The position numbers and the translations under genes are program-made. Of a DNA stretch of 64,000 nucleotides, positions 34,100 to 56,872 are shown piece by piece. The stretch comes from Ectocarpus siliculosus (Eukaryota > Sar > Phaeophyceae > Ectocarpales > Ectocarpaceae), in contig FN648605.1 in NCBI GenBank assembly GCA_000310025.1, forward strand, positions 56,307 to 120,306, read 5' to 3'. Every line of letters begins with the position of its first letter. Position 1 is the stretch's first letter. A model generated the notes under the pieces. It was not told where the DNA came from. It did no database searches and was given only the letters and a program-made list of their open reading frames with translations.

Positions 34100-35513
34100 C
34101 ACAAATACTTAACAAAAAAGTGCTGCAAAAACTATCCATGGACGAACCCAGCAGTGCCGTTGCTGTTATCTTCACAATTAATTACAAAAAACCGTTCGTT
34201 CTGTTCTCTCTACCCAGTACCTTCTTGTACCTTCTTCGTCTGTTCGTACTATCATACATGATAGTCTGACACTTGACGCGGTCGATTCCCGCCGTGGTCA
34301 CAGGCTATCTTATCCAAAAAGTTATACGAAAATAAAATGGACCCGAAGAAGGGTCCGCAAGTCAACGACAGACTAGTCTAGGACCTTCCGCTCGCTTCGA
34401 TATGCTATGCGAGGTAGTATCTGTAGACTGGACAATGAACCAAACAATGAGCAAACGAATGTTAGAGGCGACCTCACGCGCACCCGAAAAACCGTCAGTC
34501 TTCGACCGGCATATCTCACTACGCCCATCCATGCGCATGCACTTTTTTGTGGCGAGGGACTCCATGCTTTCAAGAATCATCTCGTTGATCTGTTTTTTTC
34601 GTTTACATACATGTAGTGCGCACGTCATACCCGAATGAAAAGGAGACCACACCCAGAACGTGCTCTTCCGCACGCTGGGAAAGAATCCGGGACTAAATGA
34701 ATGCGGACCCCAGAGGATACGCTTTTAACAGTAGGTTTCCTCTCCGAAACGAAAGAACCGGACGGGAGAGAGGGAAAAAAGAAAAGAGAAGAGACGTAGG
34801 ACACGTTCCCCGTCATGGGCATTTCATAAGAGTCGTATTGTGGTAGTGGCATGAACCTCTCTCTGCGATCAGGTCAGAAGACCACCAGTCCCCGGAGCTC
34901 TTCTGTTGGACCCACCATTGGACGCAGTAGTAGCGCATGTCCTGTAGTAGACAACTACTGCTGAAAATATTGGAGACCACGAATGAATCATACCGACAGG
35001 TGGGTCGTGGGTGGGCGGGGGACCCTAAGAAATAGTCAGACTCAGCCAGTTTACATCCTCATAGTTTCTTGCAAGCAATAACGAAGGGCGATCACAAAAG
35101 AGAGACCACCAGCGACAGGAAACAAAGAAGAGAAGTAGAGGAGAGCAGAGCTAAGAAACAAGTGAAGAAACAAGACCCCCTTGCCGCTCTCACCCACTGG
35201 AAGCTTTCCATGTACCGCAGCAAACAGCAGGGGCAGCACCCACTACGTTACATGCAGTAGCCGGATACATGCACGGACTGGTACGTAGTAGAAGTTTAGT
35301 CTCTTTCTCCGGCAAGAACAATAACGCCCGGGCGAACTTGAACGTGTAGTCACAAGAAATAGCGTCATGATGACGTCATCCATTCTGCTTGCCATGGGAG
35401 ATGCGCATCGTTACGGGAGGAAGGCGTGAACTCTTCGCATAGAATATGCTGCCGTAGACCCTATATCCTTCAAGGTCAACTACAGCTACACCCGATACAT
35501 GGTAGCATGCGCC
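34100..35513 (+). repeat. Long dispersed repeat, copy A
   Basis: Nearly the whole stretch matches the reverse complement of 56873-59470 at high identity. Anchors are GTGCATGCGCATGGATGG (34523-34545 region), AACAATAACGCCCGGGCG (35319-35337), GATGACGTCATCC (35370-35382) and ATACATGGTAGCAT (35497-35510). Copy A lacks the 832-bp insertion found in copy B. Its right edge overlaps the first recognisable exon of the gene at 35499-46271. Confidence 0.85.
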
Positions 35514-38500: not shown

Positions 38501-41500
38501 AGTCTGAATGCCATTTCCTCGATGCCTGCTTAAGGCCATACAGACTCTTGTTCAACTTCACTATCATACCTGACAATCTACCACACCCCTCTGGCAGACG
38601 CATGAAAACATCCTCATCCAAATCCGACTGGACAAATGCTTGCTTGATGTCAAAATGACGGAGAGAAAGATTTTGCTCACACGCCATCGCTGCCAATAAA
38701 CGAACGCTAGAAACCGCTACAGTCGGTGCATACGTCTCTCCACAATCTACATGTACTCGCTGCATATCTCCTCTCGCTACTAGCCGTGATTTCACACTAG
38801 TTGGCCATCCGTATTCATCAGACTTCCAATCAAATACCCACTTCGCCTTGATAACACTCTCTGGTTGCTACAATACTTCCTCAAAGGTACCAGCCTCGAT
38901 CAGACCTCTGAACTCCCTCTCTACAGATGCCATCCACAAGTCAGCATGCTCAGAGGACACAGCCTCCCTATACGTTTTGGGGACGCGCAAGTCACTAGCA
39001 TAGCATTGGGGCAAGTCCGGTGCCACTTCCGGGGGATCTAAATCCCTCATCGCGCGATCAATGTCCTCGCGGGAGGCAAGTAAGGTGGCGCACGCAAATG
39101 GGACTTCTTCACGCAGTCCTTCTGTTTTCGTGCCCCCCCGCTCTTCCCCCCCCAGCTCCGCTCCACCATGTCCTCTGGCTGAACTCGGGATCTCCTTTCT
39201 CCCCCCATCGACGACGCTGCGAGTGGTGAGGGTTGACAGGAGCGTTGTCTTGTCCTGCAGGGAAACAAGTCCGAAGCGGTGGGCGGGAGCGTCGCCGCTC
39301 CCGCCATGTGTCGTCGACCGCTCGTCCCCTTCATCCTGGAAACGCACCCTCCGATCCCTCAACCTCCCCGGCACCCGCGTCTCTCGTCCCAAGTCCAGCT
39401 CTCGATTGGCCCTGGCAGAGAGGGGCGGCATTGACGAAGCCCGCCCCCCCCCCTGGGCCTTAGCGGCTGCCCTCGTGCGCCCAGAAACCCTCATGTCCCC
39501 GCGTCCCACGTCCAGTTCACGGATGGTCCTCGTGGTGAGCGGCGGCATGTTGGTCGATGGCGCGGCACCGGGCGGCACGGCGGCGGGAGACGGTGTTACT
39601 GACGGAGCAGGCGGTGGCCCGGCGACGAACGGCGTTGCAGGCGGCGCGGTGGTGGTGACCGGTGGCGCGGCGGCGAACGGCGTTGCAGGCGGCGCGGTGG
39701 TGGTGACCGGTGGCGCGGCGGCGAACGGCGTTGCAGGCGGCGCGGTGGTGGTGACCGGTGGCGGGGCTGCGGTAGACGGCGCCGCCGGCGATGGTGGTGT
39801 GGAAGTTGCCGGCGGCGCCTGTGAGGGTATGGCAGCGGGTGAAGTGGGGGTTCGGGCGAACGGTGAGGGGGGTAAGAGAGGCGGTGCAATGTACTCAATT
39901 AAAAACGTCGGTGCGGCGGCGACATCTGAATCCCCCCCCTCGCCCGCCGGTGCCGGCAGCTCCAGCGGCGGGGTCAGCAACGGCGCGCGGTCGGAGACCC
40001 ACACAATGTTATTCGTCATGCACACGCGCCCCGTAGCAAACTTGAGAACCTTGACCGCCGAGTCGTGGTGGTTGTCGCCATTGTTGAGGTAGCAGCACAG
40101 CACTGCCTGGGGGTCCATCTTCCGCGTACGCGTCACACGCATGTACCCCGGCTGCAAGAACGGGACGATCTGGAGTGGGGGCGGGCGACCGGTGAAGAGC
40201 TCGTGCGGCGACTTGTACCCTCCGTTCGCCGTGGTCGGGGAACGGTTGAAGCCGCCGGCAGCCCAGTGACATGACTCTAGCCAGAGCCGCTCGCCATCGC
40301 GCCCGTAGCCAGGGATGCGGGTGAAGTCGATCTTGGGGAACAGGCGGCATGCTTCGAGACGAGCGGCGTGGCCGGTCTTGTTCACGCGCCAGATCGCGCT
40401 CTCCGCCGGGCCATTTTGTTGCGGAGTGCCCGGCGCCGTGTACGTACGGCGGATGCCGGCGTGGTCGCAGAAGGCGATGAAGTCGTGGCTGAGGAACTCC
40501 CCCCCGTTGTCCATCCGGAAAGAACGAGGAACACCGGTGCCACTCATGTCGGCGAGGAACTTCTTGACGAAGGCGAGGGTGTCCGACTTGCGCCTCATCC
40601 CGTACAGCTTCATCCACCGCGAGAAACTGTCCACGAACATGATCATGAAAAATGATCCCCCCAGCGACGCCGTCATGGGCCCACATAGATCGATGTGCCA
40701 AAGATCGTGCGGCCCGCTCGCGCGCGCGCCCATTTTATGGGGCACGCCCGCCTTCTTCCCCTTCGCCTGTATGCAACCACCACAAGGCTGCAGAACACCG
40801 GTCAGGCGGAGGCCGTGCTGCTTCGAAAGTTCACGCAACAAAAACTCATTCGCATGGGAACACGAGACGTGGAGAAGATTAATGTCAACAACGGGTGGTG
40901 GGTTTCCCCACCGAAAAAGGTCGCTTGCCCGGGGCCATGACTGGGACGGCAAAGGCAACATCATCGAAGACATTCGCAAAGCCAGACTCAAACATCAACT
41001 CCAAAAATTCATGGGGGTCGTCTGATTCTTCTCGTCGCTCTAAGAGGTACACAGCCCACTCGTAATCTCCCTGCTCCGTGAACGGAATGCACCCACGGTC
41101 ATCATCATCAATACTCTCTTGAAAAACGGAGACGTCGGGCGAGGGCAGCCCGGGAACACCTACCAACTCCATTCCATGAGGTACTTGAGGAGCGGAAGAA
41201 AAAACCACACTCCTGTCAGCGAGGGGGGGGGCATTCATTGCCGGAGGAACGACGCTGTTCCCAGCGGGCGGGACACCGGACACAGCAGAGGGTACTACGC
41301 TGTTTGCAGCGGGAGGGTAACCGTACATCGTGGAAGGTACTACGCCGGTAGCAGCGGGCGGAAAATTCGACACGGGTGCATGAAAAATATTCCTGTGGGG
41401 GGGGTCTCCATGAGGTACTACGCTGCTGGCAGCGGGCGGGAAACCAGAAACATGGGACGGCACTATGCTCCTCGGAACAGATGGATGCACGACACTGCTT

Positions 41501-44500
41501 GCAGTGGGCGGGAACCTAAACACCGTTGGAGGTACTACACTGCTGGCGCTGGCGACAGTGGGCGGTACACTAAACACCGAGGGAGGGGGCACGTACGCTA
41601 CACCTTGGGGGGAAGGCTGCATGCGGGGGATTGCATGCATAGATTCAAGACCACTCATACTAACGTAATCGGCAGAACGAGGGGCGGGCGGGGGAAACGG
41701 CGTTGTCACGGGCACAACAATGGGCGTCCCGTAATTCGGGGGCAGGCGAGTGGCTCTCAACGATGAACCACGCTCGCCACGGGGAAAAGTTAAATTTCCG
41801 TCCAATAGGTGAATGCCTACAGGATCCATTACTATGCGTTGCCCGCCCATGGCCTTGTGAAGCGAAAATAAATTAAATCCATTCCCTCAACGTGGCGTAC
41901 GTTGGTGAGCTTCACGCAAAACTCGCTCCTACCGTTGTGGAACTTTACGTTCAGGCTCCCGATACCAAGTACAGATATAATCCTTCCATCTCCAATCACC
42001 ACTCGCTCGCTACCAGGGGGAGGAATCATCACATCGTACATGCACCTAGGGTCTCCTGTGGAGTGGTTCGTTGCGCCAGAGTCTGCAAGCCAAGTTTCGT
42101 CTCCTACACTCTCATCTATCATGTTCATCATGGCATATCCTTCGACCCTACGCTCTACAAGCACACCATTCTCTGACTCACGTGGAAAAGCCCACATCAC
42201 ACACGCATGCAAATCCCCACCAGCCGATGGAGACGTTCCGGTCGAAGGCGCCGGAGGAGCGTACGGGCTGGGGATGGACTGCTGCTGCTGTTGCACGGGG
42301 GGGGGGGGGGTACTCCGGCTGCTGCTGTTGGGGCGGGTACTGGTAAACGCCGCTCGCGTGCGTCACAGGATTATGGTAAACGCCGCTCACGTGCATCACC
42401 GGTTGCTGTTGCGCTTCTGCCGCCGCTCCTGCTGATGTGCCTGCTGCCGCTCCTGTCTCGTGCGCCTCTCCGCCGTACTGCTGTGCGGTGTTAGCCTGGC
42501 CGTAGGAGTGCGCCCACGGTGGCCGCTGGGTGTTGTATCCCGCGGCCGGGGGCCGGGGCGGTGCGGGCGCTGCGGGCTGGCCGGCTGGTCTGCCTACATC
42601 CACCCGTGAAGGGCAGAAGATGTGGTTGTGGCCCATCTCACCGCAGTTTTCGCACCGCTTCCTCGGATCTGCTGCGTGGATAGGTGGCTCGTTTCCTTGG
42701 GGGCGGTAGATGTTCGGAGGGTAAGCGCTGTAGTCGTACCCCTGCTGAGGCACGGGGTAGGCGGGAAGATTGCTGCCTGGTGCTCCCTGGTGAGGAGGGC
42801 CTCTGCCCCATCCACCGGGAGTGGCGCCACGTCCACCGTGTCTTCCTCTTGCCAGCTGCTGCTGATGACGTCCTCCTCCAGAAAAGCCCCGGCCCCCATG
42901 CTGGGGCCCGTACCTTCCGCCGTATCTCGCATCTTGGCTGCCCGAGGGACCTCCCCAACCTCGCTGCCAGCGACACTCATCGTTGCTGTGGGACGGGGTG
43001 TTGTGGAGGTCACAATATCTTATCTCGGGCGGGTGCGGCGGCGGGTACATCTGTTGCTGTCGATAGAAGTATTGCTGATTCTGCTGCTGTGGCTGCTGCG
43101 GTTGTTGCTGCTGTTGTCGCGCTCCCGTCCTCCGTTGTCCTCTCGACTGCCCTGGTCCCCCCGTGTTCCCTCCCCCGCCACTACGGTTCTCACCGCCAGT
43201 GACGAGGGCGTAAGCCCCCACGCTCTCCTGCTTCTTCTTCCTTCTCGCCTCCATCTCCGCCCAAGCATTCACTATGATTCTTTCTACCCTCTCCCTCTCC
43301 AGACCATTCTCGGACATGAGAAAACCTGTGTATACATCATAATCCGGGAGGAGGTTGCGCACGAGGTGTCTGTTGGCATCATCTTCAGTTATCATCACGC
43401 CGCATGACGACAATCTTTGCCTTAGCACCCACCCTCTCGACAGGTACTCTTTGGGATGTTGGTCTCCCTTCTGCGTCAATTGTTGCCACTCTAGTTGGAG
43501 GCTAGTCTTTTCTGTGTGGGCGTGCACTTCAAAGTAGTTTCGGAATATCCTCCATGATTCCGTGGGGCAACCACTAGAGATAATGGCTGGAACGATCGAT
43601 GCAACCTGAATCTTCGCCAGTATTAGCTGCCATGCCTTCATAGCCTTCTCTACGGCCCTCCTACCATACTCCTCCTTCAGATTGGGAATGTCTGCATCTG
43701 GTTTCCCCACCTTGATCGTCTCTTCTGATTGTATCGCGCTCAGGCAATCTTCTTGTTGCAGCAACATCCGAAATTGGCTCTCAAAAACCTGCACTCTAAC
43801 CTGGACATCGACACTCGAATCGAACACACCCGTAAATGGGGCTACATGTATTACAGGACTGACACGAATGGTGTCCTTAGGGGGTAAGACTTCCCTGGTT
43901 TCCTCCCCCGGAGTGTTGGTCCTCCGCATTGCCCGCGCGAAGGACTCAACGAGACGGTCCTCCAACGATCGTGGCTGGTCTTCAGGTTGCGGGTCTAACG
44001 CTGTTCCAGCCGGCCGAGCATGCCGGGGATCGCCTCCATCGGGGGGCTTGTCCACGCTCTCTGATGCGGGACGCTTCTCTTCGGTAAACTTGATTTTTTC
44101 TTGTACTCCTCTCTCCACTTCCTCTTTGATGTGCGCCGATAATGCTTGGCGGTCCTCTTCAGTTAAGCTGCTGAGGTCGAGGGCTTCCATGATCTACTTC
44201 TCTAGCCGAACCCTTTTATAGCTAACCTCACCTAGGGATCCCGTGTGATATCACACGCTAGCGTGTTAGGATGATCCGAACTGGGGGTAGCTTGTCGCAA
44301 GACGTGTGTTGAATAGGGTGTCGGCAACTCGGCGAACTAGCGCCAAGGAGGAAAGATGTGCTGGGTTGTTGTATAGACTTCTTCTTCACATGAAAAACAT
44401 GGACTCACATGAACACATGAACGAACTGCACGCACACGCGCACGCACCATCAGTACGGGGGCGACGCAGTATACAACAGGGGTACCTTGCACACCCTGGA

Positions 44501-46271
44501 AATACATTCCACGTACCACACAATCCTACAACCACTTGGCATTGCTACAAGTATATCTATCAGTACCCGTAAATACGAAAAATCGGTCCCTAGAAGCTGT
44601 GCTCGGGAGGAAAGCCGCATCTTTCTCCGGCTGCCTTGGACTTTGTCATTCGCCAACCGAAGACTGATGTGGCACCTATGGCATATTCCTCATTACTCGT
44701 CCGCCCCCCAACAACATGTCGTGCCGCCTGCCCAAACCGCGTCCGTAGAAAAGCACTCCGCAGGTGTCAGACGCCAAGCTGACCGCGGCAGCCAAAGCCG
44801 GCGTCATGGCCAACAACGAGGCACTGATGACCCTGGTGAAGACCGAGGTCGCAAGTCAAGTACTGCAGCTGAAGACGGGCCTGGAGGCACGGTTGACTGA
44901 GATGGAGAGCAGCGCGAAAGCCGACCAAGAGACGCGTTTTGGGTCGCTGTTCACCAGCATCCAAAGCGGCTTGACGAACGCATGCGAGTACATCACCGGG
45001 GTCGTGAAGGAGAACGGCCGCCAGCTCGACGAGTGAGTGTTGATGTTTGTTCCTGGAGTGTTTTCGGGGCACCCCACACAAGGGTGGGTGATGCCCCCGC
45101 AACGAAGTACCCAATTCGTTGTTCTAGACCTTTCGGGTGTATGTGGGTGTGCGGCATAGGTTTTTTGTTGTTGTTGTTGTTGTTGTATACGTGAGTGTTC
45201 TGGGAAAGAGGTCGACGAGGGCACCGTTGCGTGCGCCGCCTTTGGTTTTTGACTCTCCGAGTCGCGAGTAAGTGTTCCGGCTTAGTCGGGTCTTGGGCGT
45301 CGTTGGTTAGGGAAACAAGTGCTCCGACAGCCACCCCATACCCCTCTAACCCCTCCTTCCAACGCTCCAACCCCCCTCTATTTAACTCTCCGCCTCCCGT
45401 CCATTCGATCCTCCGCTACGCATCTGCCAAAAACCCACAGGAGTATTTCGGGCAACAAGAGAGGCCCCCCATCCAAGACTCCATCGCCGAAAAGGCGCAG
45501 TCCGCGTGAGCACGAGACTACGCGGAGGAGGTGAGTACACTTGGTGTAATTTGGTTGTGGCCCGTCACCTTTTTCTCCGTCGCTGACGCTTTATAGCATC
45601 CACGCAGCCACCGCAAATCGTAAATCAAGGCGAGGAAGGTTAGGTTGTAAAAGGTCGGACTGTCTCTCTTCGTTGGTTCCATTTCGAGAGCTGGTGATAC
45701 GTTGCAAAGTACCCGCGGATAGACTCAACACCCGCTTCTTTCTGACGCGTGTCCTGCGTTGTCGTGATGGTGCGTGTCCAGTGACGAACGTGAAGAGGCG
45801 ACGACGCATGGGGCTCTGGCGACGGTGGATGGTAACACGTTAATGAAGATAGCCGCTGAAATGGGCACCGCTTTGTCGCAGGGCAACGCCAATCAAGCAC
45901 GTGTTTCCGACCAGGCCCACAACAACGCCATGGCTCAAGGCACCCAGTCAATGGGGGGGTTCGTGTCGGTGCCACACAACATGATGCAGACCCGGGGGGC
46001 TGGTGCTTCCACGATGGGGATGATGCAGAACCAGGGGGCGGGTGCGTCCTCGATGAGGATGATGCCGACCCAGGGGGCGGGGGCGTCGTCGATGGGGATG
46101 ATGCCGACCCAGGGGGCAGGGGGGTCGTCGATGGGGATGGGTGCACCCACACAGCGGATGGGTACACCCTCCCAAGGTGCCACCAACCAGAGTGGCTATA
46201 TGCAGCTTTTCGGGCAACAGAACAACGACCTCAATCAGGGCAATGGCTATCCTCCCTTCCGATTTAACTAG
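35499..46271 (+). CDS. Multi-exon gene of unknown function, interrupted by a Copia element
   Basis: Exons whose phases fit: 35499-35555 (open upstream to about 35443), 36110-36202, 36289-36354, 36823-36861, 44764-45032, 45441-45530 and 45782-46271. The first five joins are phase 0. The last two joins split a codon after its second base, and both work (GA|GTGAGT to CAG|G; GAGGAG|GTGAGT to CCAG|T). The protein is helical and Ala/Lys-rich (NKWKDNSVEAANKWKTTAQA, ALMTLVKTEVASQVLQLKTG, GLEARLTEMESSAKADQETR), so a coiled coil is likely. A basic proline-rich linker (RGPPSKTPSPKRRSP) follows. The C-terminus has four Met-rich repeats (QGAGASSMGMM) and a Gln/Asn-rich end before TAG. Not recognised. The 7.9-kb fourth intron holds the antisense Copia element. 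The true first exon may lie further upstream in repeat copy A. Confidence 0.65.
36867..37166 (-). repeat. Copia 3' LTR
   Basis: 300 bp, starts TGTTAGGATG and ends TATCTATCA on the plus strand. It is preceded by GTACC and followed inward by the purine-rich tract of the element. Confidence 0.95.
37449..38795 (-). CDS. Copia reverse transcriptase and RNase H
   Basis: The frame contains the RVT_2-type signatures KSRLVARGDMQ, GETYAPTVAVSSVRLL, LRHFDIKQAFVQSDLDEDVF, LNKSLYGLKQASRKWH and the catalytic VVHVDDIF (both Asp kept; Tyr replaced by His). RNase H motifs follow: FADADYASKAADRRSVSG, TLSTTEAEYVSLA, EDNQGAIQLA and SKHIDVRHHFIRD. The stop is at 37449. Upstream the frame is open through 38796-38867 (24 codons, including KAKWVFDWK) to an in-frame TAG at 38868-38870 that joins it to the integrase frame. 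Confidence 0.95.
   Translation of the reverse strand: MKSRLVARGDMQRVHVDCGETYAPTVAVSSVRLLAAMACEQNLSLRHFDIKQAFVQSDLDEDVFMRLPEGCGRLSGMIVKLNKSLYGLKQASRKWHSDLARCLICLGFIQCMADTCVFRLIEEGKVVVTLVVHVDDIFSIGEEERCDQFGRDLNTMVPVKNLGDLRWYSGCFYERDWDAGTLKISQQTYAEELGMEFGVEYGKEIPLPVGLKLSEFDQDEEVVSRPFRELIGSLMWLATQTRPDIANAVRAVARYCASPKEIHWRAGLGILGYVVRTSDLGITFRRGSVAGLSMEVFADADYASKAADRRSVSGGLVMCGGGCISWFSRTQKCVTLSTTEAEYVSLANVMKEVLFLRQVWRFMLPEAGMPCIPVFEDNQGAIQLAQNPISNSNSKHIDVRHHFIRDLVRRKEISIFHVESAYQHAGFLTKALNVGNFEFHRNFVMSMD
38868..40991 (-). CDS. Copia GAG-pre-integrase and integrase
   Basis: A zinc-binding GAG-pre-integrase HHCC (LLHVSCSHANEF...PCGGC) is followed by the DDE core: LWHIDLCGPM, FRMDNGGEFLSHDF and PQQNGPAESAIW. 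A proline/threonine-rich linker with three exact-looking repeats (VTTTAPPATPFAA) and a region leading to RT (SSEHADLWMASVEREFRGLI) complete it. The frame ends at UAG followed by CAA CCA, then continues into RT in the same frame. Confidence 0.93.
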   Translation of the reverse strand: MSLALRMSSMMLPLPSQSWPRASDLFRWGNPPPVVDINLLHVSCSHANEFLLRELSKQHGLRLTGVLQPCGGCIQAKGKKAGVPHKMGARASGPHDLWHIDLCGPMTASLGGSFFMIMFVDSFSRWMKLYGMRRKSDTLAFVKKFLADMSGTGVPRSFRMDNGGEFLSHDFIAFCDHAGIRRTYTAPGTPQQNGPAESAIWRVNKTGHAARLEACRLFPKIDFTRIPGYGRDGERLWLESCHWAAGGFNRSPTTANGGYKSPHELFTGRPPPLQIVPFLQPGYMRVTRTRKMDPQAVLCCYLNNGDNHHDSAVKVLKFATGRVCMTNNIVWVSDRAPLLTPPLELPAPAGEGGDSDVAAAPTFLIEYIAPPLLPPSPFARTPTSPAAIPSQAPPATSTPPSPAAPSTAAPPPVTTTAPPATPFAAAPPVTTTAPPATPFAAAPPVTTTAPPATPFVAGPPPAPSVTPSPAAVPPGAAPSTNMPPLTTRTIRELDVGRGDMRVSGRTRAAAKAQGGGRASSMPPLSARANRELDLGRETRVPGRLRDRRVRFQDEGDERSTTHGGSGDAPAHRFGLVSLQDKTTLLSTLTTRSVVDGGRKEIPSSARGHGGAELGGEERGGTKTEGLREEVPFACATLLASREDIDRAMRDLDPPEVAPDLPQCYASDLRVPKTYREAVSSEHADLWMASVEREFRGLIEAGTFEEVL
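40885..41850 (-). CDS. Copia pol segment between protease and integrase (shifted frame)
   Basis: Continues the protease domain in another frame: the sequence before its first Met reads NLFSLHKAMGG, the usual end of Copia proteases. A long Val/Pro/Ser repeat region (FPPAASSVVP-type units) and an acidic segment follow. The frame runs out at 40885, where the integrase frame has already opened (40991), so a second shift is needed near a T5 run at about 40917. Confidence 0.75.
   Translation of the reverse strand: MGGQRIVMDPVGIHLLDGNLTFPRGERGSSLRATRLPPNYGTPIVVPVTTPFPPPAPRSADYVSMSGLESMHAIPRMQPSPQGVAYVPPPSVFSVPPTVASASSVVPPTVFRFPPTASSVVHPSVPRSIVPSHVSGFPPAASSVVPHGDPPHRNIFHAPVSNFPPAATGVVPSTMYGYPPAANSVVPSAVSGVPPAGNSVVPPAMNAPPLADRSVVFSSAPQVPHGMELVGVPGLPSPDVSVFQESIDDDDRGCIPFTEQGDYEWAVYLLERREESDDPHEFLELMFESGFANVFDDVAFAVPVMAPGKRPFSVGKPTTRC
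41832..42296 (-). CDS. Copia aspartic protease
   Basis: Contains the retropepsin-type catalytic motif TWLADSGATNHSTG, then VVIGDGRIISVLGIGSL and LTNVRHVEG, the typical Copia protease layout. It is in a different frame from gag upstream; the switch falls at a run of 14 C on the coding strand (42297-42310). A run of 13 C would make gag and protease continuous. Confidence 0.88.
   Translation of the reverse strand: MQQQQQSIPSPYAPPAPSTGTSPSAGGDLHACVMWAFPRESENGVLVERRVEGYAMMNMIDESVGDETWLADSGATNHSTGDPRCMYDVMIPPPGSERVVIGDGRIISVLGIGSLNVKFHNGRSEFCVKLTNVRHVEGMDLIYFRFTRPWAGNA
42178..44190 (-). CDS. Copia gag polyprotein
   Basis: Starts MEALDLSSLTEEDRQAL at 44190. The capsid-like region resembles UBN2-type gag (WQLILAKIQVASIVPAIISS, WRIFRNYFEVHAHTEKTSLQ, QRLSSCGVMITEDDANRHLV, LLPDYDVYTGFLMSENGLER). 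A Gln/Pro/Gly-rich linker follows, then one CCHC zinc knuckle (C-x2-C-x4-H-x4-C: CENCGEMGHNHIFC). The true product probably passes into the protease frame at the C14 run; the annotated end at 42178 is the unshifted frame. Confidence 0.9.
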   Translation of the reverse strand: MEALDLSSLTEEDRQALSAHIKEEVERGVQEKIKFTEEKRPASESVDKPPDGGDPRHARPAGTALDPQPEDQPRSLEDRLVESFARAMRRTNTPGEETREVLPPKDTIRVSPVIHVAPFTGVFDSSVDVQVRVQVFESQFRMLLQQEDCLSAIQSEETIKVGKPDADIPNLKEEYGRRAVEKAMKAWQLILAKIQVASIVPAIISSGCPTESWRIFRNYFEVHAHTEKTSLQLEWQQLTQKGDQHPKEYLSRGWVLRQRLSSCGVMITEDDANRHLVRNLLPDYDVYTGFLMSENGLERERVERIIVNAWAEMEARRKKKQESVGAYALVTGGENRSGGGGNTGGPGQSRGQRRTGARQQQQQPQQPQQQNQQYFYRQQQMYPPPHPPEIRYCDLHNTPSHSNDECRWQRGWGGPSGSQDARYGGRYGPQHGGRGFSGGGRHQQQLARGRHGGRGATPGGWGRGPPHQGAPGSNLPAYPVPQQGYDYSAYPPNIYRPQGNEPPIHAADPRKRCENCGEMGHNHIFCPSRVDVGRPAGQPAAPAPPRPPAAGYNTQRPPWAHSYGQANTAQQYGGEAHETGAAAGTSAGAAAEAQQQPVMHVSGVYHNPVTHASGVYQYPPQQQQPEYPPPPRATAAAVHPQPVRSSGAFDRNVSIGWWGFACVCDVGFST
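44264..44562 (-). repeat. Copia 5' LTR
   Basis: 299 bp, one base shorter than the 3' copy (GGGTTG against GGGCTTG) and with one substitution. Just inside it (44243-44256) is the 14-bp palindrome GTGTGATATCACAC. I do not see a standard initiator-Met primer-binding site. Confidence 0.95.
45782..46271 (+). other. Last exon of the interrupted gene, with Met/Gly-rich repeats
   Basis: The exon encodes GNTLMKIAAEMGTALSQGNA, then tandem QGAGASSM-type units at about 45985-46140 (45-bp period, 4 units), then a QQNNDLNQGNG end and TAG. Repeat length is a codon multiple. The coding assignment is part of the gene entry 35499-46271. Confidence 0.6.
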
Positions 46272-47423
46272 GTTGACGATATTTCTGAGCATGCCGGTCA
46301 AACGCTTTTGGTTTTTAGTCGATCGCCAAACGGCCCGCCTCAAGGGGGACGCCTCAAGGGGGTCCTCGTTTTGCGAAGGAAAGTGCAGTCATTTTGGTGT
46401 TTTTGTGAGGCGGGTGTGTGTTGTCCTTTTTTTTTACGAGGGGGGGGGGGGGGGTTGCACGTTATCAATTTTCGCAGTCGTAAGGGACGCAGTAGATTAC
46501 GAGAAAGAAAGAAGAAGGGGTCGCCATTGGCAGAGGGGGGGGGGGCGTTTAGGAGTCGGGGGACGATTTATGTATGCCGTTTGTGTATCCTCTCAGGTCA
46601 GGTCAGCTTTCTTTGTGGTACTGGTAGTGGTGGGTTGTCGTGGTTCATTTCTTGTATGGGTACGTGGGCACCCGATACAACGAGTGTAGATCGTTCTAAT
46701 GTCAGGTGCCAAACGACCCTCGGCGTCGTTGATTGTGTTGTTCTGTTTTAAGTATCATATCTGCCCTCGTTGGTATGACAGCAGTCGTTGGTATGACAGC
46801 AGGCAACAAACGACGCGCAACACAAGTATGCATCTATCTGCATATGGTAAACCAGAGTGTAGTAAGGAGAACTGCGCACACTCGCACCAGTGGCGATTCA
46901 GCGTCAGGCACTTGTCTCTGTCTACGCTTGTGACGAGGTGGCTTACATCCAAGTTGCGAGCCACCGAAGTTGTTGACCTGTCTCTCCTAACACACGACTT
47001 TCGACTCGTGCGTGTAGAAGACATGATCAATGCTTCGAATAATATTGCAGTAGTGGAGCAGCTGCTTTAAAATAGGGGGTGCTGCCGCGCCCTTGCCGCC
47101 AGTCAGTACATGACGTACGACATGAGGTGCGTGGCATCCACACCCTCGATAGTCTCGGGGGAGCCTGACAAGCACGCTGTGACAGCTGGCCAATCCTCTG
47201 CTGCTGCACCATCCTCCACTCGCCACACGGGCCGAAGCGACCATCCTACATCCTACTCCGGTCTCCAAAAGCGGCCCCGAACAGCCCGCCGTTGAAAAAT
47301 TTATTGCCTTTTGCAACACAGAGACCGGTCCAGTCGCATGCTCGAACTTGGTCCTTTTCGGGGACCTCTCTCCCATCTGCCACTCCTCTCTGTCACCCCC
47401 ACGCCCTCTTTCCTTCAGTTGGG
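46272..47423. other. No gene supported; flank of the nuclease gene
   Basis: Contains a G run (46441-46454), two copies of TCGTTGGTATGACAGCA (46768-46801), and just before the nuclease ATG a pyrimidine-rich CCTTTCCTTCAG (47407-47418) that looks like a splice acceptor, suggesting a 5' untranslated exon upstream. No terminal inverted repeat was recognised here. Confidence 0.4.
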
Positions 47424-50400
47424 ATGGGAGTCAATTCGCTCTCCCGCTTGTCTAAAAGCGTGGCTTCGGTCAGGATTGATCTTGAAAACGGACAAGGCAA
47501 ACATCATGTCATCGTCGACGGCGGGTTCCTAAATCACCGCATGTGTTTGAGGGGGGTAGCGGCGGCAAATTTACTTCTCAACAACGACGTCTCCCGTCAA
47601 GTAGAGGAGTGTGCCCGAGATATGAAGCTCTTTGAAGACCGCAATTTCCTAGTGACGGTAGTGTTCGACGGTCGGCCGCCTCCGGCCAAGAGTGGGACAT
47701 CTCAACACCGACGAGAAAGGAGGCAGAAGAGTGCACAACAGGCGCGCGCTCTACACGACGCCGGTGGCTGTCCCGTGGAGATCAACAAGTTGGCCAGCGC
47801 TGCTTGTGCTTTCGACGGTCGAGTTACCGCTGAGATCGCAACGCGCTTGAGAGCCCGTATCAGGGGGGAGGTTTACATCGCCCCAGGCGAAGCGGATCCA
47901 CAGCTTGTAGTTTTCCAGGACATCCATCTCGCAACAGGGGCGAACGTGTACGTGTATGCCAATGACTCCGACTTAACAGTTCTTGGGGTACGGGATCTTT
48001 TGGTGGAAGTGGTCAAGAACGCGAGAGGAGAGCTTGTCGGAAGATGCGTCCGGCAGAGGCTGCTCTTCCAACCCACCGCATGGTCCTTCCTCCGGAGCGG
48101 GGATGCTCATGGTTGGCTGCGCCAGCTGCACGGGATACACCAGCCAGTTGACGAGGGCTTAGACTACACGCCTCTACCGGAACCGACCGCCCGCCGCCGC
48201 CTTCTCTTGTTCGCCATTATCGTAGGCAACGACTTCGCGAAATTCAAAAATGTCGGACCAGTTACTGCTGCAAGGCTAGCTTTCGTTGACACCGAAAGCG
48301 GTGTCTGGGCGGCATCTTTGCTACCATTCGATGCGGTTGTGGGATACCTGGCCTCAAGGCTGCTGGTGGAGTCCAGGGAGGAGGACACGCCTGCTGTGCG
48401 GCGTGAGTTTGAGATCCGACTGCGCGCCTGCCACACCATGTTTACACAGCCCGTGGTGTGGAACCCGCTGAGCGGAGAACTCCAACATTTGTCCGGCGCG
48501 CCGACCAGGGAGGAAATCACCCGCCATGCAGGTCAGTGTTCCGCGTTTTTGTGTGTGTAAGAATGCTCCTCGTACCTGAGACCAGCTTTTGGTTGATGTT
48601 TCCCGACGTCACCTTACTTGTAGTCGGGCGCCAGCAGTGAGACCTTACACACTAGTAAAATGTGTCCTTTACACTGGAGTCTGCGTGCAGCAAGGAGGTC
48701 TGATGTACCTTCAAACATGCTTTCTACAAAGTAGATTTGCAGGTAAACCCACCAATGACCTCGGTCTGGCTTTGCTCGTCCCGTGATTACACGGCTCCCG
48801 CTGTACTGCATACTGTGTAAGCCTGCTGTACTGAAGCAGATACATTTAGTGACGGCGTTGCATATACTATCGCCTGAACTCCCTTCACTGTCATGCTCGC
48901 ATCCTGCACGTACAGGGACGTCGGAGCTATCCCCGCTGGCGTCCCGTGTGGCCCGGAGAGATGCCTGTCCGCTGACCGGGCGCGAATGGGACCCACCGCT
49001 GGGTACAGCACAAGCGAAGGGGCAGGCGGTAGGCGAGGATGCTGGCAGGCAGAAGAAAAGGGCAACACCCGAGACGGCTAGCACCCGCCCCCCGAATGCT
49101 AGCAGCAGGGCGTCTCGCTCTCGAGGTCCTCAAGACACAAACAACTACCGCGAGCACGGCTTCAGCAGACTCCCGGCGGAAACTGAAGATTACACCAAGT
49201 TGACCGTGCCTAAGCTTCGCGAGTTTCTAAGCGTGAGTAAAATATGGGTTTTTAGCGACATTTTTTCTAGAGAGCTACTGTCAGTAGGGTACTAGTCGGG
49301 GAGGGTACTTACAGTTATGGCTGTGACAGAATATTTGGTCCATAGACTATTACTACTTCAAAATATATTTTGGGTAAAGAGTGCATCCTGTGTTGTAAAC
49401 TTGGCGCTTCGTCTTTCAGACTGCCGTTACTGGCTTCCGGGTGCGCCTGTCGACCATCCAACAGCAGGTTGAGCGATGTACGCACACACGCTTACAAAAG
49501 AGACCACACACCACGTTCCGCTTTGCACACAGCGCACTGCGGCTGCTGTTAGTAAGGTTCGGGGCGGATATCCCGATTGGTTTAAGAAGTAATGTTTTTG
49601 AAATAGCCCCAAAATGGTACCCCACAAGTTATCACAAGTTGTGCGATTTTGGACTGTAGTTAAATTGTTCGCGTACGGTGGGCCACGCTCAGAGCAGATT
49701 AAGTACACCATTGGCGCCGGATATGTGCAATTCAGCCCCCCTCGCAGTATGTTTACGGTAATGGTCACGTTGACCACAAGTCAGATATTGATGTCCGTCA
49801 ACCACTTCGTTACAGCAGTCGTTCGAACACGGGATTATTGTGCGTAGGGTAACAACGAACCTACAAGTTTTGGTTTCTTCGCGTTCTGTTCGAGGCAGCG
49901 GTGGGGTACGAGATGCACGCGGCAACTGCACGTGGAGATTGCAAATTGTAACCGAAGATATACATTGTTCTTCGCCTAAGATAAGCGGGTGGGTTTCGGT
50001 GTGCGTCATCAGCTAAGCATGAACGTATATGCGCCCCACACGCTTGGGATTCTCCTCTTGTCGTGTGCATTTCTGCCGTCAGGTTTTTAGGTGTCTCGAC
50101 AACGCCGGGACCAGTGGGTTCAACAAAGCACTCCTTGCTCAGATGGCTGGGGATGTCGTCAGGCTGATAAGGAGCTGCGGTGTGTTGGACACCAACTTGG
50201 CGTTTCGCCATCCCGTTCCGGACCTCAGCTCTTTTGAGGAAAAGGAGGCCAGGCTAATGACGGATCTTCCTGCGACAGGGCTGCGCATAAAGGAGTGGTC
50301 CGCTATGCGGCGGTATCTCCCCGAGATATCGAAAGCCGTCATCTTACGGTTCATGGGAGAAGTGAAGAAACTCGCCGGCGAGGGCTCGCGGCTCTGGTAT

Positions 50401-51730
50401 AGATCGGTGCAGCGGGTGTTGGACATGGGGAACCTCAGCAGGTTTTGGGCCGTTCCGGCAGCGGGGGGCATTATGTGGATTGGGACTAGGTGAGGCGCAC
50501 GAAATGCACCCCGCCTGGAAGGAGGATAGGCATATACTGCTTCGCGTTGCCGTCATATTGTTTCCGGTGTGTGTTCTAACGTTGTTATGTTTTGATGTTC
50601 GGATTACTTAGATGGAGTATGCTTGATCTAGTCCCGACGTACGATTCGACGGTGACAGCGCAGCATATTGCCACCCGGGTCTGTGTGCATTATGCGCACA
50701 CGTACTTTCCGTTGCATTCGTGCTTTTCTGCCTTGACCATGTTTATAACCGTGTAGATGTTCCCGTCGGAATGACGCTGATGCCAGCATCGTACACAAAA
50801 CAAGTTACCCTCTACGATACTCGAGGGACAGACCCGGTCCCCCACGTGTTCTTGCCTTGCTTTCCCCGCACGTCATGACGGCGCGGTACGCTGCATTTCG
50901 TTGACTTTGTTTTCGATCGTTGCCTGCTCCGTCAGCAACGTTGTAGTGGAGATTAAAAACTCGAAAATGAAAGACTGCGCCTAACAACCTTCCCATCCCG
51001 ATGAAATCATCTCCAACTGATAACACACAGCGCGGGCGCCTCCTTCTCGGCCGACAAGGAGTACCGCATCCGCATCAAACTACGAGTGGAAGAAGTGGAT
51101 GAGAGCGCACCCCCGACGGAGCAAGAGGAGAAGGAGGGGGAGGAAGAGGAGGAGGTCGTGGGCAATGACCCGCGGTCGGCGCAAACCCTGGTAGCCCTGG
51201 AGGTCATCGCGGCTCTCTGCGAATGTCCTGCGGGCATTAAGGGGGGGTGCTCCCACGCCGCCATGGCGCTGTTTTTAGGTAGACTGCTCCAGATGTCTGA
51301 AGAACAGCTAGCCACGTTCAATCCTACCACGTGTACGGGAATGGCATGCCGCTGGATAATGCAGCATGGCAAGGGTTCTCGATCGGCCAAACAGTGCGAG
51401 CTATACGGCATGAGTATGTCGGTAGGAACCACGGTCGTCCGGAGTGTTCGGGACCCGAAAGGGAATGTAGGATGGGACGACGACAAACAAGTCCACGCGA
51501 GTGGGGTTCCACCCATAGATCGAATGAACCAATTCAACCCGCATCCTACCGGGGGAATGTGGGCCGCACGCAAAGTGCACTTCGATGCTGGCGAGGACAT
51601 CAGCAAACTCAAGAGGGACAAATTAATGGCGTTCGTAAATCACGAGAGGCGATCGGACCACCAAGAGGTGTGCCTGGATTATCTACCGCCAAGAGTACGC
51701 GAAGAAAACAATTCTTCACACTTTGCGTAG
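47424..51730 (+). CDS. XPG/FEN1-type nuclease fused to SAP and SWIM domains
   Basis: Exons: 47424-48531, 48916-49232, 49420-49551 (donor tentative), 50083-50489, 50612 to about 50690 (end unresolved), possibly 50757-50873, and 51031-51730. From MGVNSLSRL (FEN1-like start, preceded by an acceptor), exon 1 holds the XPG-N and XPG-I folds with all metal ligands: VIVDGGF (D32), VVFDGRPPPAKS (D82), APGEADPQ (E156, D158), ANDSDLTVLG (D181, D183) and VGNDF...NVGPVTAARL (D270 plus the H2TH turn). Exons 2 and 3 join in phase to make a SAP domain (KLTVPKLREFLS | TAVTGFRVRL). Exon 4 is helical and continues into WSMLDLVPTYDS. The last exon has an acidic stretch and a SWIM finger, CECPAGIKGGCSH. Ends TAG. 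XPG enzymes cut branched DNA; SAP and SWIM usually bind DNA or partners. It is convergent with a transposase, so it may be the second gene of a DNA transposon. The combination is unfamiliar to me. Confidence 0.82.
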
Positions 51731-51884
51731 CCACGTTGAAAAGTGCTTGCGTGTGCATTCGTGAAGTGATTCTGTGTGTGTGGCGGGGGGGGGTCGTGGG
51801 TTGCTGTAATTGTCACGACCCAAGCTGGGGCGTGTTTCTCTCTTGCCCGGAGGGGAACTTGGTGGAGGAATGCGGTACAAGAGG
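51731..51884. other. Short sequence between nuclease stop and gap
   Basis: Contains GTGTGTGTGGCGGGG and no further exon signal. The gene's 3' end may run into the gap. Confidence 0.4.
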
Positions 51885-52076
51885 NNNNNNNNNNNNNNNN
51901 NNNNNNNNNNNNNNNNNNNNNNNNNNNNNNNNNNNNNNNNNNNNNNNNNNNNNNNNNNNNNNNNNNNNNNNNNNNNNNNNNNNNNNNNNNNNNNNNNNNN
52001 NNNNNNNNNNNNNNNNNNNNNNNNNNNNNNNNNNNNNNNNNNNNNNNNNNNNNNNNNNNNNNNNNNNNNNNNNNNN
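51885..52076. other. Assembly gap (192 N) followed by a G run
   Basis: 192 N, an estimated rather than placeholder length, followed directly by about 34 G. It lies between the nuclease gene and the convergent transposase. Confidence 0.95.
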
Positions 52077-52110
<34 letters not shown>

Positions 52111-52111
<1 letters not shown>

Positions 52112-52792
52112 CCTTTTTCTTTTTTATGGATTTAGGCTAATTTTGCACCTGGGCCTGCCTGGGGATACAACATGGTGTTTTCCGCTACGAAGTATGTGTT
52201 ACTCTCTTCTTGAAACCCTTTGACACCGATTCTACGCTGTGATGCGAATACCCCGATGCCTAAAATACAACGTTACAAAAATTGACGACAGGTTGCACTC
52301 CTCAACCCCAATACCCTATTCTTCGCACTGTGTCGCACGGGGAGCCAGCAAGATGCACGAAACCTCTAACATGGCACCGAAACACGGGGTTCGGTTGTGC
52401 CAAGCCCTAGGCAATATGCAGTTCGATGAGGTCGTCATCCTAGGCGTCTTCCCGTTTCCCATGTTAATATTCGCACGCTCGCTGTTCGCCGCGTTACCTT
52501 ACGTCCCACGAGGACAGCACTGACGCTGCAAGAGATTCATCTTGTTCCGTCCCCAAGGAAATTCCAGACGCGATAGTCTAACTCCAACTTAAGGATGTCC
52601 AACGTTCACGAGGGTTACCAAACAAAGAGTATTCCGTCCGAGGCTTGGAAACAACCGATGCAAGTCATGGGCCGGTATGCCGTTCACCAACCCAACACTA
52701 CGCCCGAAATAAGAACTCGTTTCTCAGCAAAAAAGAAACAACTCTAAACTCCAACAGGAGATAAAGAAAGAAATAAGAGAAGACTAACAAAT
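52111..52792. other. No gene seen; 3' flank of the transposase
   Basis: No exon supported. If nuclease and transposase form one element, this is the interior between their two 3' ends. Confidence 0.4.
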
Positions 52793-54280
52793 TTACTTAT
52801 CGCTCTTGAACGGCTGCTGAATCATGTTTACTAGAGCTGCAACCACATGGAAGCACATCTCCAAGTGATCGAGTTGCTTATGGTTGAATTTCTTGTCGAC
52901 AATGCTCCACTTCTTCATGGCCCCGATTGCCCGCTCTACATGAATGCGCAGATTCGCTACCTCCCAGTTGGATTCCATGTCGGCTTCAGTGAACTGCTTC
53001 TCCTTCTGCCGCTTGTAAGGGGGCGCCACGTACAGGAAACCTTCCTGGATCAACAACGGCGACACCGAATTGAACCCCTTGTCCGCCATGACCATGAGGC
53101 CTTCGTGATCAAGGCCATTGTCCCTCATGGCGTCGACAAGACCAGACGCCTTTACAACCTCAACATCGGACATCCTACCGGGATACGCGGGCCCAATGTA
53201 ACAAATCGCACCCCCAGGGGTGACCGCGACAAGTAATTTCGCCGTCTGTCTGCCCTTGTACGTGGAATATGTGATCCAGTTCCAGTCAGTTTGCCAAGAC
53301 CTGCACATTTCTATCTCAGTGGCGTCCAGAACTAGAACACACTTTGCATACCCATGATCGACAAAGTTCTGCGGGACGAACTCGTCCACCTCTGCTAAAG
53401 TAGGAAGCCGAACCAAAGGTCGAAGACTACGCCAAAGGAAGTTTAACCACGTCGTGAACGCCCTCCCCCCGGTAGTCTCGTGGACACCAAACAGGGCCGA
53501 TGCCACCACAATCGGCGTCGCGGTGCGCAGGACCATCAACGTGAAAAAAAGTCCGTTCATTCCCCGAAATATCTTTCGCCTCTGCTCAACCCTTGTCCCG
53601 TCTGCTGTTATCCCGCCTCCCTCTCGCTGGTCATAGAACACCATATTCTCCGCCTGACCCTCAGCATCCAGGAACTCGTACAACTTCTGCAGGCGGTGGC
53701 ACGTGGGGTGATGACGAAGATGCGACAAAGGTAGCATTGCGGGTATCAGCACATGAAAACTATTTGCATGACTCGGGTGACAGTAGATATCACATGAAAT
53801 ATTATGACTGCATCCGACTGGCGCGGAGTCTTCGTGACCTTTCGTTGCCGTTAAACGAAACACGAACCCTCCATTTTCCCAACAGAAGAGCAGCAACAGC
53901 AGCAGTCACCCTATAGAGGCGAAAAACAACAAGGGTCGATCCGAACTCTGCTAGATTGGTAGCGAGATCAATACAATGGAAGGAACTTACATACCGCACT
54001 GCCGCGCTATCTCATGCTTGACGAGAAATATGTCACTATGGCCTTTTATGTCAAGAACAACGATGTACGCGCTGCTGTATGCATGACAATGTATGCATTC
54101 TTCAGCAGCGGTCATTGGAGCATATACTTATTTTACAACTGCTGCTGTGTCGGCGGCATGCAGTAATGTGGCGTGCTCGTAGCTTACGGAACTGGCCGGT
54201 TTAGAGAGAGACAGAGCGAGAGACAGAGGGAAAGAGAGGGAGAGAGAGGGAGGGACACATGGGCAGAGAGAGACAGAGCG

Positions 54281-54368
<88 letters not shown>

Positions 54369-55132
54369 ACACACACACACACAGCGAGAGCCAGAGAGAG
54401 ACGGAAAGTCGTCCAGCCGGCCGACCAAGCGAGCAAGTGCAAGGACCTACAAACATGTATTGACCAAGCAAGTGCTAGCACATATCCTACGTTACGGCCG
54501 GTCTTGGGTACTCTGATTACACGCACAAGCCTCAGAACACTTACCTCGAGAGACTCATGGTCGCTGAGACCGACGAGGGAGCGAACTCCCACAGGCTGCA
54601 AAGAACGCAGTAAGTTGTGGTCGATCCCAATCACACCAGGGGCTGTTCCTGCCGCTTCCTTTGCACTCCTCTCGTTCTGCTTCGCTTCCTTAAGCTCCGC
54701 CTTCAGCACCGAGATGCGTAGCCTAAGCTTCCTCGCCTCGCCATTGAGTCGTCGCTGCTCCTCGTTGTCATCCAGCAGTGCTGCCCTGTATCTTGTCACC
54801 AGAGCATCGGACTTCCGACTCCTTGCAAGGGCACCCCTCGAAGCATTGAACATTTCGTCGCTTGACTAATCTGGCAGAGCTCCATCTTTAACCCTTACAC
54901 CCAACGTACTACCATCCACCGAGTTGATAGTGTTCTCGGCTTCCAGGCTCCCAGGTGGAAAGTGAGCAGCGGAAATCCTTGCGTCGCGTACTGGCCTCGG
55001 GAGGTCGCTCCGGCCGAAAAGGGCGTGGCACCAGCTTTCTCTCTTCTCAGGGTCAATCGTCATCCGTATGGTTGCGTGACCGCCGTCTACTCGGCAAAAT
55101 TCAGTATCACAGACGCATTTGTGGTTCCCCAT
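52793..55132 (-). CDS. THAP-type DDE_Tnp_4 transposase, multi-exon
   Basis: Exons on the minus strand: 55132 to about 54869, then 54865-54545, then 53686-52793. Donor GAG|GTAAGT at 54545 and acceptor CGCCTGCAG at 53687 join in phase 0. The first exon is THAP-like: CDTEFC, a central WCHALFG, and RISAAHF where the family normally has a Cys before the Ser. A TAG at 54866-54868 interrupts the frame and may be an acceptor. Exon 2 is a coiled coil (LRLRISVLKAELKEAKQN). The last exon starts KLYEFLDAEG, has an HTH_Tnp_4-like segment (GLFFTLMVLRTATPIVVASA), and the DDE core with D121 (LVLDATEIEM), D202 (VMADKGFN) and E251 (HVERAIGAM), plus TYKGRQTAKLLVAVTPGG and PGRMSDVE typical of DDE_Tnp_4. It catalyses cut-and-paste transposition if intact. 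No terminal repeats were found by eye. Confidence 0.85.
54202..54383. repeat. GA/CA microsatellite in the transposase intron
   Basis: An interrupted purine tract leads to an uninterrupted (GA)n at about 54284-54364, followed by (CA)9 to 54383. It lies within the intron 54544-53687 of the transposase. It produces spurious Arg-Glu or Leu-Ser open frames that are not genes. Confidence 0.95.
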
Positions 55133-56430
55133 CGGGGTGTCGGTCGCAGCAATCGAGTCGGATGTGAAGGCGATACCGGAGAATACCGGAGAGAGTGGGT
55201 GTGGATTGCTGCCTTGGTGCTGTGGTTGCTGTCGCTGTGGCTTGTTGTGGCTTGTGTTTTTTGCTTTTTGTTTGAAAGGGCGGAATACGGTGAGATTTGC
55301 GCTGGTGTGACGTTGTGGGTGCTATTCAAGCCAGGTGTATCAATCATCTCGTGGCTTTGGTTGTATGCACCCCCTTGGCGCAGAAAGTGGCCTGCGGTGC
55401 GTAAGGGTGTGTGTGTAACCCGTGTCCAGCGCTGTAACAACGTTGTGAGGCCTGTGCATCCGAGGGCGGTGCTAGGATGATGAGCCCACCACAACGAGAA
55501 CCTGGGGGCAAATGTGTCTTGAAAATAGACTGGGAATCAGCCTGATCCCCCCCCCCCCCCCACAGCCACTTTTGGGAATTTGGCGGCCCAATTGCAGGAA
55601 GCCTATTGTACACATGCGGCTGCTGCTGCTGTTTCTGCTGTTATGGTCGGAATGTGCTGCAATGGTCGTACGGTTATCGTAGTCAGGTTTGACAACAGTC
55701 TGCTCGTTCGTATAGCGGTAGCGGTGCTCATCTATCGCGACGGCAAGCGCATTGAGATAATAGTTCGTCCGCCGTGCTTCTAGTCTATACAGACAGATAG
55801 TCGTGTTCTTCTCTGTTGCCACTTCATACCAGAAAAGAAAGAAAGTCTCCACCAACTTAGAGTATCTCCACATCTCCACAGCAGTTCGGAAACGACGACT
55901 ATTTTTCTTTTGTCGTGTTTTTTTGTTGCTGAGCGCACATCGGATGTCGCCGTTCGTTACACGTGTTCAAGCCTGCGGTGGACCAGAGGGATGAGAGTGG
56001 GTGTCTTCTCTAGAGTTCATGCCTTGTATTCTCTAGTCTCTCTTCTTTTAGTCTGCCTCTCCCTCTCTGTTGCATTTTCGCCGTTAGGGTCCCCAATAAC
56101 ATCGAACGTCAACGGCAATCGTTTGGCCTCTTGCTGAGTAGGAGAGGCTACCCGTGTACCCGGCTGCTGCATGTGAGGCAATGGGCGCCGCCTCTTTCCG
56201 TCAAGCAATTCGCACGGCCCCCACAGTTCGCCGCACATGCAGTGCTGTGTGAGAGCTTCCAGCGCTTCAGAGCGTCGACGGTGTTTTTCGCCAGTAGAGC
56301 CCCAGAACAACGCGAACCCCGCGACTGTTTCATTGTTTTGGGGTCCCCCACTCACCCACCCATCCATGAATTTCAGCAGTTTTCGTTGGGGGGATGTTTT
56401 TCTTGTCATGTCCATGACGTGGTGCCCCGA
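55133..56430. other. No gene supported
   Basis: 5' flank of the transposase. A C run lies at 55547-55561. Short open frames, including one with a Leu/Val-rich hydrophobic stretch near 55200-55270 (plus), have no further support. Confidence 0.35.
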
Positions 56431-56845
56431 GCGAGTATGGTTCGGTAGGGACTCGCAAGCCATGACCCCTCCCCGAGTTTGAGCATCAGCTTCGGCCCCC
56501 TGTGACCGACAAGAAGACCGGAAATTGTCTCGCCATCCAAACAACAGTTGGCGAGTTGAAAAAAGAGGGTCCGGTCCGCCGAAGATTTTGTTTTTATATT
56601 TCCCTGCCGACAAATAACCTCGTCTACGGCAGTGCAAATCTCATGGCGCCTCAAGTACGGTTCCGTAGGGAAGTGCAAATCACGACCCCTCCCCGACTTT
56701 GAGTATAGCTTCCACCTCCTGCGGCGGATAAGACCGACGTCAAACCCTAGATTTTGTCTGTCTGTGTCGCCATGCTGTCGCCATCCACGAACAGCAGTTG
56801 GAGAGTCACAATAAAGAGGGTCCGCTTCGCCACCAAGAAAACAGT
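56431..56845. repeat. Diverged direct duplication, about 210 bp units
   Basis: The blocks GTTCGGTAGGGACTCGCAA, CATGACCCCTCCCCGAGTTTGAG, CGCCATCC..ACAGTTGG and AAGAGGGTCCG at 56437-56575 recur in the same order at 56650-56825. Next to the start of repeat copy B. Confidence 0.75.
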
Positions 56846-56872
56846 TTTTTTTTCGATTCTTCTACAGCTGGA

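Follow-up and report, generated by a model that had tools for sequence, protein, structure and literature searches.

ISL2EU elements are animal DNA transposons that carry a DDE transposase with a helix-turn-helix (HTH) and a THAP domain, insert at AT targets and contain a second gene encoding a protein with a YqaJ nuclease (PMC4482050, PMC9179366). The functions of the extra genes in these transposons are described as unknown in the portion of PMC4482050 consulted; for Harbinger, later work describes a Myb-like helper (PMC9179366), and neither paper, in the portions consulted, gives a role for the ISL2EU nuclease. In brown algae, the Harbinger and Pangu transposons of Ectocarpus have two tail-to-tail genes and generate three-base ANT or TNA duplications (PMC12477816), whereas the element described here is bordered by AT only. 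This element lies in a 64,000-nucleotide stretch of Ectocarpus siliculosus DNA (contig FN648605.1; G000:C131:56307-120306; hereafter the window), where a minus-strand DDE transposase gene stands tail to tail with a plus-strand gene for an XPG/EXO1-like nuclease, as an earlier sequence-only reading of the window had proposed and the gene models confirm. The element is almost certainly a genuine DNA transposon family, nuclease gene included, and the reading as a whole, namely a brown-algal transposon of the Harbinger/ISL2EU kind that bears an EXO1-type nuclease instead of YqaJ and uses it in end processing, is considered probable, the end-processing role taken by itself being rated slightly below even odds. 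The kind of transposon is known and the XPG-bearing version appears to be new: it was not found in the open-licence literature, Repbase lying outside that search, and the terms XPG, exonuclease and THAP are absent from the main text of PMC12477816.

The element resembles ISL2EU in its two main genes, its DDE transposase with an HTH and a THAP-like start (below the Pfam cut-off), its 2-base AT target and its nuclease-bearing second protein. It differs in that the nuclease is XPG/EXO1-like rather than YqaJ, a third gene is present, the inverted repeats measure 310-430 bp and begin with AGG, as opposed to 6-259 bp and usually GG (PMC4482050, PMC9179366), the base outside the AT is mostly C instead of A, and the host is a brown alga, whereas ISL2EU has been described from animals. 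A six-frame, exon-by-exon search of the host genome (189.5 Mb, 492 contigs) detected no YqaJ at any copy of the element, its sole match (G000:C16:4387488-4387868, 41 bits) being on a contig without element matches. The sequence-only reading had suggested an ISL2EU-type transposon in which YqaJ was replaced; the lack of YqaJ fits this, and the replacement itself, direction included, is a putative event. Because the YqaJ feature is missing and kinship was judged from the domain make-up of relatives, the family appears ISL2EU-like and is not assigned to ISL2EU as a member.

Copies, ends and target site

Genome-wide searches, in which only the best candidates were scored so that match counts are lower bounds, yielded at least 33 matches to the transposase exon on 19 contigs, 25 to the SWIM-like exon of the nuclease gene on 18 contigs and 27 to its XPG exon on 17 contigs. 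Transposase and SWIM-like exons occur together on 17 contigs, that is, on 17 of the 18 with a SWIM-like exon, and are arranged tail to tail on 16 of them, the exception being C12 (C12, C390, C15 and the like denote host contigs carrying copies). They lie less than 3 kb apart in 15 of the 17, 5.7 kb apart in C122 and 11.7 kb apart in C239. The SWIM-like exon is located downstream of the XPG exon on the same strand in 15 of the 17 XPG contigs. As for contigs with one part, the SWIM-like exon of C376 has no transposase match and stands 226 bases from the contig end, the transposase of C454 has no SWIM-like match and, judging by the spacing, its nuclease gene would fall past the contig end, and the copy on C114, also lacking a SWIM-like match, starts only at the region of the assembly gap.

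Copies fall into subfamilies A (among them window, C15, C114) and B (among them C390, C53, C13, C71, C33). The window, C15 and C114 copies share the same right end, beyond which their sequences diverge, and in C15 an inverted counterpart of this end is found 14.67 kb away, the two repeats agreeing at 395 of 427 bases. Subfamily B, with transposases 72-74% identical to that of the window, has its own inverted repeats of about 310 bp (about 430 bp in A), which are 96-98% alike and pair across 12,205 bp in C390, 15,203 bp in C53 and 14,291 bp in C13. Inverted repeats at both ends therefore enclose matches to the XPG, SWIM-like and transposase exons in four copies (C15, C390, C53, C13; 12.2-15.2 kb), and because the parts co-occur across contigs and common ends surround them in these four copies, the two genes are regarded as one transposon family. 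The proposal of a DNA transposon carrying both genes between common terminal repeats is thus upheld; the extent given for a two-gene element (47424..55132) covers the genes, but the element contains at least three genes and measures 12-15 kb, not 7.7 kb. What had looked like the left end of subfamily B (L059 424 / L060 439) proved to be an inner break and was rejected, the true left ends being found elsewhere.

More distant copies form subgroup C (C261, C223, C200, C94; 72-96% mutual identity), whose transposases are 37-51% identical to that of the window and whose nucleases, where found (C261, C94), are 34-37% identical. A further subgroup, D, comprises C187 and C454. Short copies with A-type ends and remnants of the first exon of the third gene occur on C124 (71903-73343) and C19 (129853-130336) and are probable non-autonomous derivatives. 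The copies on C53 (L070:1999-3988) and C13 (L071:1692 to L065:571) each contain an insert, roughly 2 kb long and absent in C390, at a shared position in the element; if the insertion is one and the same, both copies moved after acquiring it.

The repeats start with AGG inside an AT, and ATAGG stands at the border in 19 of the 22 ends read (exceptions: the left end of C124, C186 and C71), the base outside the AT being C at 11 of these 19, unlike A/AT/T. The right flank of the window copy is itself repetitive, with 373 first-look candidates of which 40 places were scored, and at 40 places, counting that of the query, the stretch runs across the insertion point without interruption. Ten uninterrupted places were read; nine have AT exactly at the junction and one has CT, and the AT therefore belongs to the target. 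In the five copies with two good ends, AT is present on both sides and is the only sequence common at the borders, from which, together with the target-derived AT, a 2-base AT target duplication would follow, in agreement with the fixed target duplication that had been anticipated. A three-base TNA/TWA or ANT duplication, a trait of PIF/Harbinger and Pangu, was not encountered in these five copies.

Genes of the element and state of the window copy

The nuclease gene of the window (plus strand, 47424-51730) was modelled with four exons and an 843-residue open frame, the splice into exon 3 following the Pylaiella protein P0001. A 48-base exon of the first gene model (49420-49467) was dropped, as P0001, P0002 and P0004 splice past it; the 859-residue version containing it was the query for the searches for nuclease relatives and with the SWIM-like region, and for the accompanying Pfam scan. 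Judged against curated Pfam cut-offs, exon 1 matches XPG_N with 28 bits (cut-off 22) and reaches 15 bits for XPG_I (cut-off 24.9). The best solved relative is human EXO1 (E 5e-4), with FEN1 second. The window and C390 nucleases both have all seven acidic residues checked (D32, D82, E156, D158, D181, D183 and D270), in keeping with the description of the XPG/FEN1 nuclease as fully conserved; their pairing with EXO1 derives partly from the EXO1 alignment, the remaining residues being assigned by the motifs of XPG/FEN1 enzymes. In P0001, Glu replaces the last catalytic residue, at the D270 position, and the metagenome protein P0005 retains the same catalytic motifs. The C390 nuclease gene is open over about 800-860 residues, with an uncertain start of exon 2.

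A structure model of the nuclease domain, built from six sequences, has a mean predicted local distance difference test score (pLDDT) of 52, with 204 of 369 residues below 50, among them residues 154-272; compared with the PDB, EXO1 fills the top 14 places (template modelling score about 0.43) and FEN1 comes next. By its XPG_N match, its catalytic acidic residues and this low-confidence fold, the protein is EXO1/FEN1-like, with a predicted nuclease activity, but it differs from EXO1 and FEN1 in being transposon-encoded, fused to a SWIM-like module and distant in sequence.

The SWIM zinc finger has the motif CxCx(n)CxH. The last nuclease exon contains a CxCx7CxH motif that is invariant across seven aligned copies, the structure model of this exon has a mean pLDDT of 36, and the SWIM-like region alone, used as a query aimed at YqaJ proteins, matched three proteins, all algal. 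SAP appeared in one unspliced frame with an E-value of 0.14 across 15 residues. No Pfam match to the Myb/SANT domain of the second gene of PIF/Harbinger and Pangu was obtained in the nuclease protein or in the third-gene exons scanned. SWIM, SAP and THAP are motif-level labels, whereas XPG and DDE_Tnp_4 hold; the sequence-only reading had named all five, and its SAP and SWIM assignments did not reach Pfam thresholds.

Relatives of the nuclease were found in Pylaiella littoralis, in Ectocarpus siliculosus (two), in Scytosiphon and in P0005, which comes from a 7,677-base contig, the nearest being those of Pylaiella littoralis and Ectocarpus siliculosus. The two Ectocarpus siliculosus proteins, P0002 and P0003, carry the record names 'Exonuclease I Exo1' and 'Exonuclease 1', and are probably transposon genes misread as host genes. 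A pattern search of viral contigs returned 39 matches, none of which was a true relative.

The transposase matches DDE_Tnp_4 with 113 bits in the window and 112 bits in C390, and HTH_Tnp_4 with 30 and 36.5 bits, all above the Pfam cut-offs. The DDE_Tnp_4 part of the earlier assignment is therefore retained, whereas its THAP part stays below cut-off: Pfam lists no THAP in the window exon at E <= 0.1, the C390 protein scores 15.4 bits (E 0.034, cut-off 23.9), and a profile comparison of the THAP-like start gives an E-value of 0.0017 yet a probability of 15%, the Cys of the C..H pair being absent. A genome-wide Pfam THAP scan gave no matches and was uninformative, since its 14 controls likewise gave none. 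Comparison of the transposase with solved structures gave no matches. The window gene contains an in-frame TAG at a position that codes for an amino acid in C15 and C114; the C15 gene is broken in exon 2, and that of C390 is open over 487 residues. A long GA microsatellite (54284-54366) lies within the transposase intron of the window.

Among the 67 transposase relatives listed, in a search that scored the candidates with the most shared words, 38 are at least 43% identical, including named Pylaiella and Ectocarpus proteins and one Undaria model, and the other 29 are 25-36% identical and carry DDE_Tnp_4 (29 of 29), HTH_Tnp_4 (28 of 29) and THAP (8 of 29). One distant relative in this list, P0061, also bears YqaJ (50 bits). 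A further transposase relative, P0015, sits on a 7,677-base contig, equal in size to that of P0005, and the two proteins probably come from one contig bearing both genes.

A third gene, encoding a Cys/His-rich protein, is located directly inside the left end of the element and, like the in-frame TAG, had been overlooked in the sequence-only reading. Its first exon occurs at eight loci, every one near an element end, and the C390 version of this exon matches nothing in Pfam at E <= 1; among the remaining exon frames that were scanned, three gave weak, sub-cut-off Pfam matches only.

The window copy (35504 to 55604) is damaged, having lost its left end (2.4 kb relative to C15), received a long terminal repeat (LTR) retrotransposon and acquired a premature stop in the transposase. 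The LTRs of the retrotransposon are 99.3% identical, and it reads as a recent insertion nested in the transposon. The copy is embedded in another abundant repeat (55607-57000 and 35385-35508; 373-455 first-look candidates, 40 scored), a 124-base piece of which stands inverted at its left border (35385-35508). Features of the window copy are compiled in the table.

Table. Parts of the transposon copy in the window, in window coordinates
Feature	Position	Strand	Evidence or remark
Left remnant of element, third-gene (Cys/His-rich) exons	35504..36866	+	98% identical to C15
LTR retrotransposon inside element	36867..44562		301-bp LTRs, GTACC flanking both sides
Element resumes past retrotransposon, later third-gene exons	44563..46475	+	98% identical to C15
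Nuclease exon 1: XPG/EXO1-like nuclease domain	47424..48531	+	Open frame, splice sites, XPG_N match, EXO1 best solved relative
Nuclease exon 2: linker, SAP-like segment begins	48916..49232	+	Splice model
Nuclease exon 3: remainder of SAP-like segment, linker	50083..50489	+	Splice model, junction as in P0001
Nuclease exon 4: SWIM-like CxCx7CxH motif, stop codon	51031..51730	+	Splice model, motif invariant in 7 copies, no Pfam match
Assembly gap (N) between genes	51885..52076		C15 counterpart: G-rich stretch, about 30 bases
Transposase exon 2: HTH_Tnp_4 and DDE_Tnp_4	52793..53686	-	Pfam, gene model
Transposase exon 1: THAP-like start, helical linker, in-frame TAG at 54868-54866	54545..55132	-	Gene model; THAP below cut-off
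Right terminal inverted repeat	55154..55604		Same end in window, C15, C114; inverted partner in C15
AT from target site	55605..55606		9 of 10 repeat copies read have it at the uninterrupted site

Possible role of the nuclease in transposition

Co-occurrence and selection support the view that the nuclease is an integral part of the element, apparently retained since before the subfamilies split. The ratio of nonsynonymous to synonymous substitution rates (dN/dS) was computed for the XPG and SWIM-like exons, except in two comparisons of the SWIM-like exon against the window, where dS was not computable; for the XPG exon it is about 0.22 between subfamilies A and B, a value that rests on a dS of 1.9, near saturation.

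Several observations weigh against the proposed reading. Within subfamily B, where the counts are too small for a verdict, the values look less constrained, with dN/dS of 0.48 for the XPG exon (C390-C71, just 10 changes) and 0.61 for the SWIM-like exon (C390-C33, just 9 changes). The XPG exon was not detected in the genome search at the SWIM-like loci C12, C223 and C200, and two diverged XPG loci, on C4 (G000:C4:3957063-3957899) and C372 (G000:C372:8108-9182), have neither SWIM-like exon nor transposase matches; these may be a host relative, a source gene or a decayed element. At the level of domains, XPG_N in the C390 nuclease scores 21.9 bits, slightly below the cut-off, the nuclease fold model is weak, the Pfam SWIM profile matches none of the seven SWIM-like exons scanned, Pfam SAP matches none of five nuclease homologues, and the THAP label fails its cut-off. 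In addition, both ends and an empty site were never seen for the same copy, and the element is known from sequence, no activity or movement having been observed.

YqaJ/lambda-type exonuclease and EXO1 are unrelated enzymes that both remove the 5' strands of duplex ends. Because both nuclease types degrade 5' strands, a function of the present nuclease in end processing during transposition suggests itself, and it is put forward here with some reserve. A 12-15 kb element with inverted repeats of about 310-430 bp, inserting at AT and encoding a DDE transposase, an XPG-SWIM-like protein and a Cys/His-rich protein, would be cut and pasted by the transposase, as its family membership implies. Through its zinc-binding part, the nuclease may be directed to the transposase or the ends of the element, where it would strip 5' strands or flaps from the excision break, from insertion gaps, or from both. 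Trimming of 5' strands at the donor could steer repair towards copying from the sister DNA, which would restore the element there and raise its copy number; alternatively, it could yield a tidied junction at the new insertion. An exchange of YqaJ for an EXO1-type nuclease would preserve the same processing step.

An unlikely alternative is that the element picked up an EXO1-type gene from its host and carries it as cargo, with no part in transposition. Cargo genes have been reported in giant Ectocarpus transposons (PMC12477816), the best relative of the nuclease is a host-type repair enzyme, and no clear constraint is visible within subfamily B. Cargo, however, fits poorly with a nuclease that stays with the transposase across subfamilies with transposases of only some 50% identity, that keeps its catalytic residues in both A and B as well as in the metagenome relative, and whose counterpart in ISL2EU, the second gene, likewise encodes a nuclease (PMC4482050, PMC9179366). 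It is quite improbable that the nuclease serves the element away from the cut ends, for instance in replication or as a defence against silencing by the host; its DNA target may lie elsewhere, and some transposons have accessory proteins of a different activity, such as that of a methyltransferase-carrying element (PMC12477816), but end processing would be the most direct fit for a 5' nuclease encoded beside a DDE transposase. That two unrelated host genes became neighbours by chance, as the ordinary gene names of the Ectocarpus relatives ('Exo1') might suggest, was rejected as scarcely credible, given copies on 17 contigs and common ends around all parts in four.

Collectively, the presence of an unrelated nuclease type in the same place as YqaJ points to nuclease activity as a conserved need of such transposons, and their unexplained second gene becomes testable. 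The finding also bears on annotation, as related Ectocarpus genes are recorded as 'Exonuclease 1' or 'Exo1'. A more tentative extension of the end-processing role is that end resection is the dedicated task of the second protein in ISL2EU-like transposons, that this lineage swapped YqaJ for an EXO1-type nuclease on a SWIM-like targeting part, and that the element controls the repair of its own break. If so, the transposon would govern the repair of its own excision break and thereby have itself recopied into the donor site.

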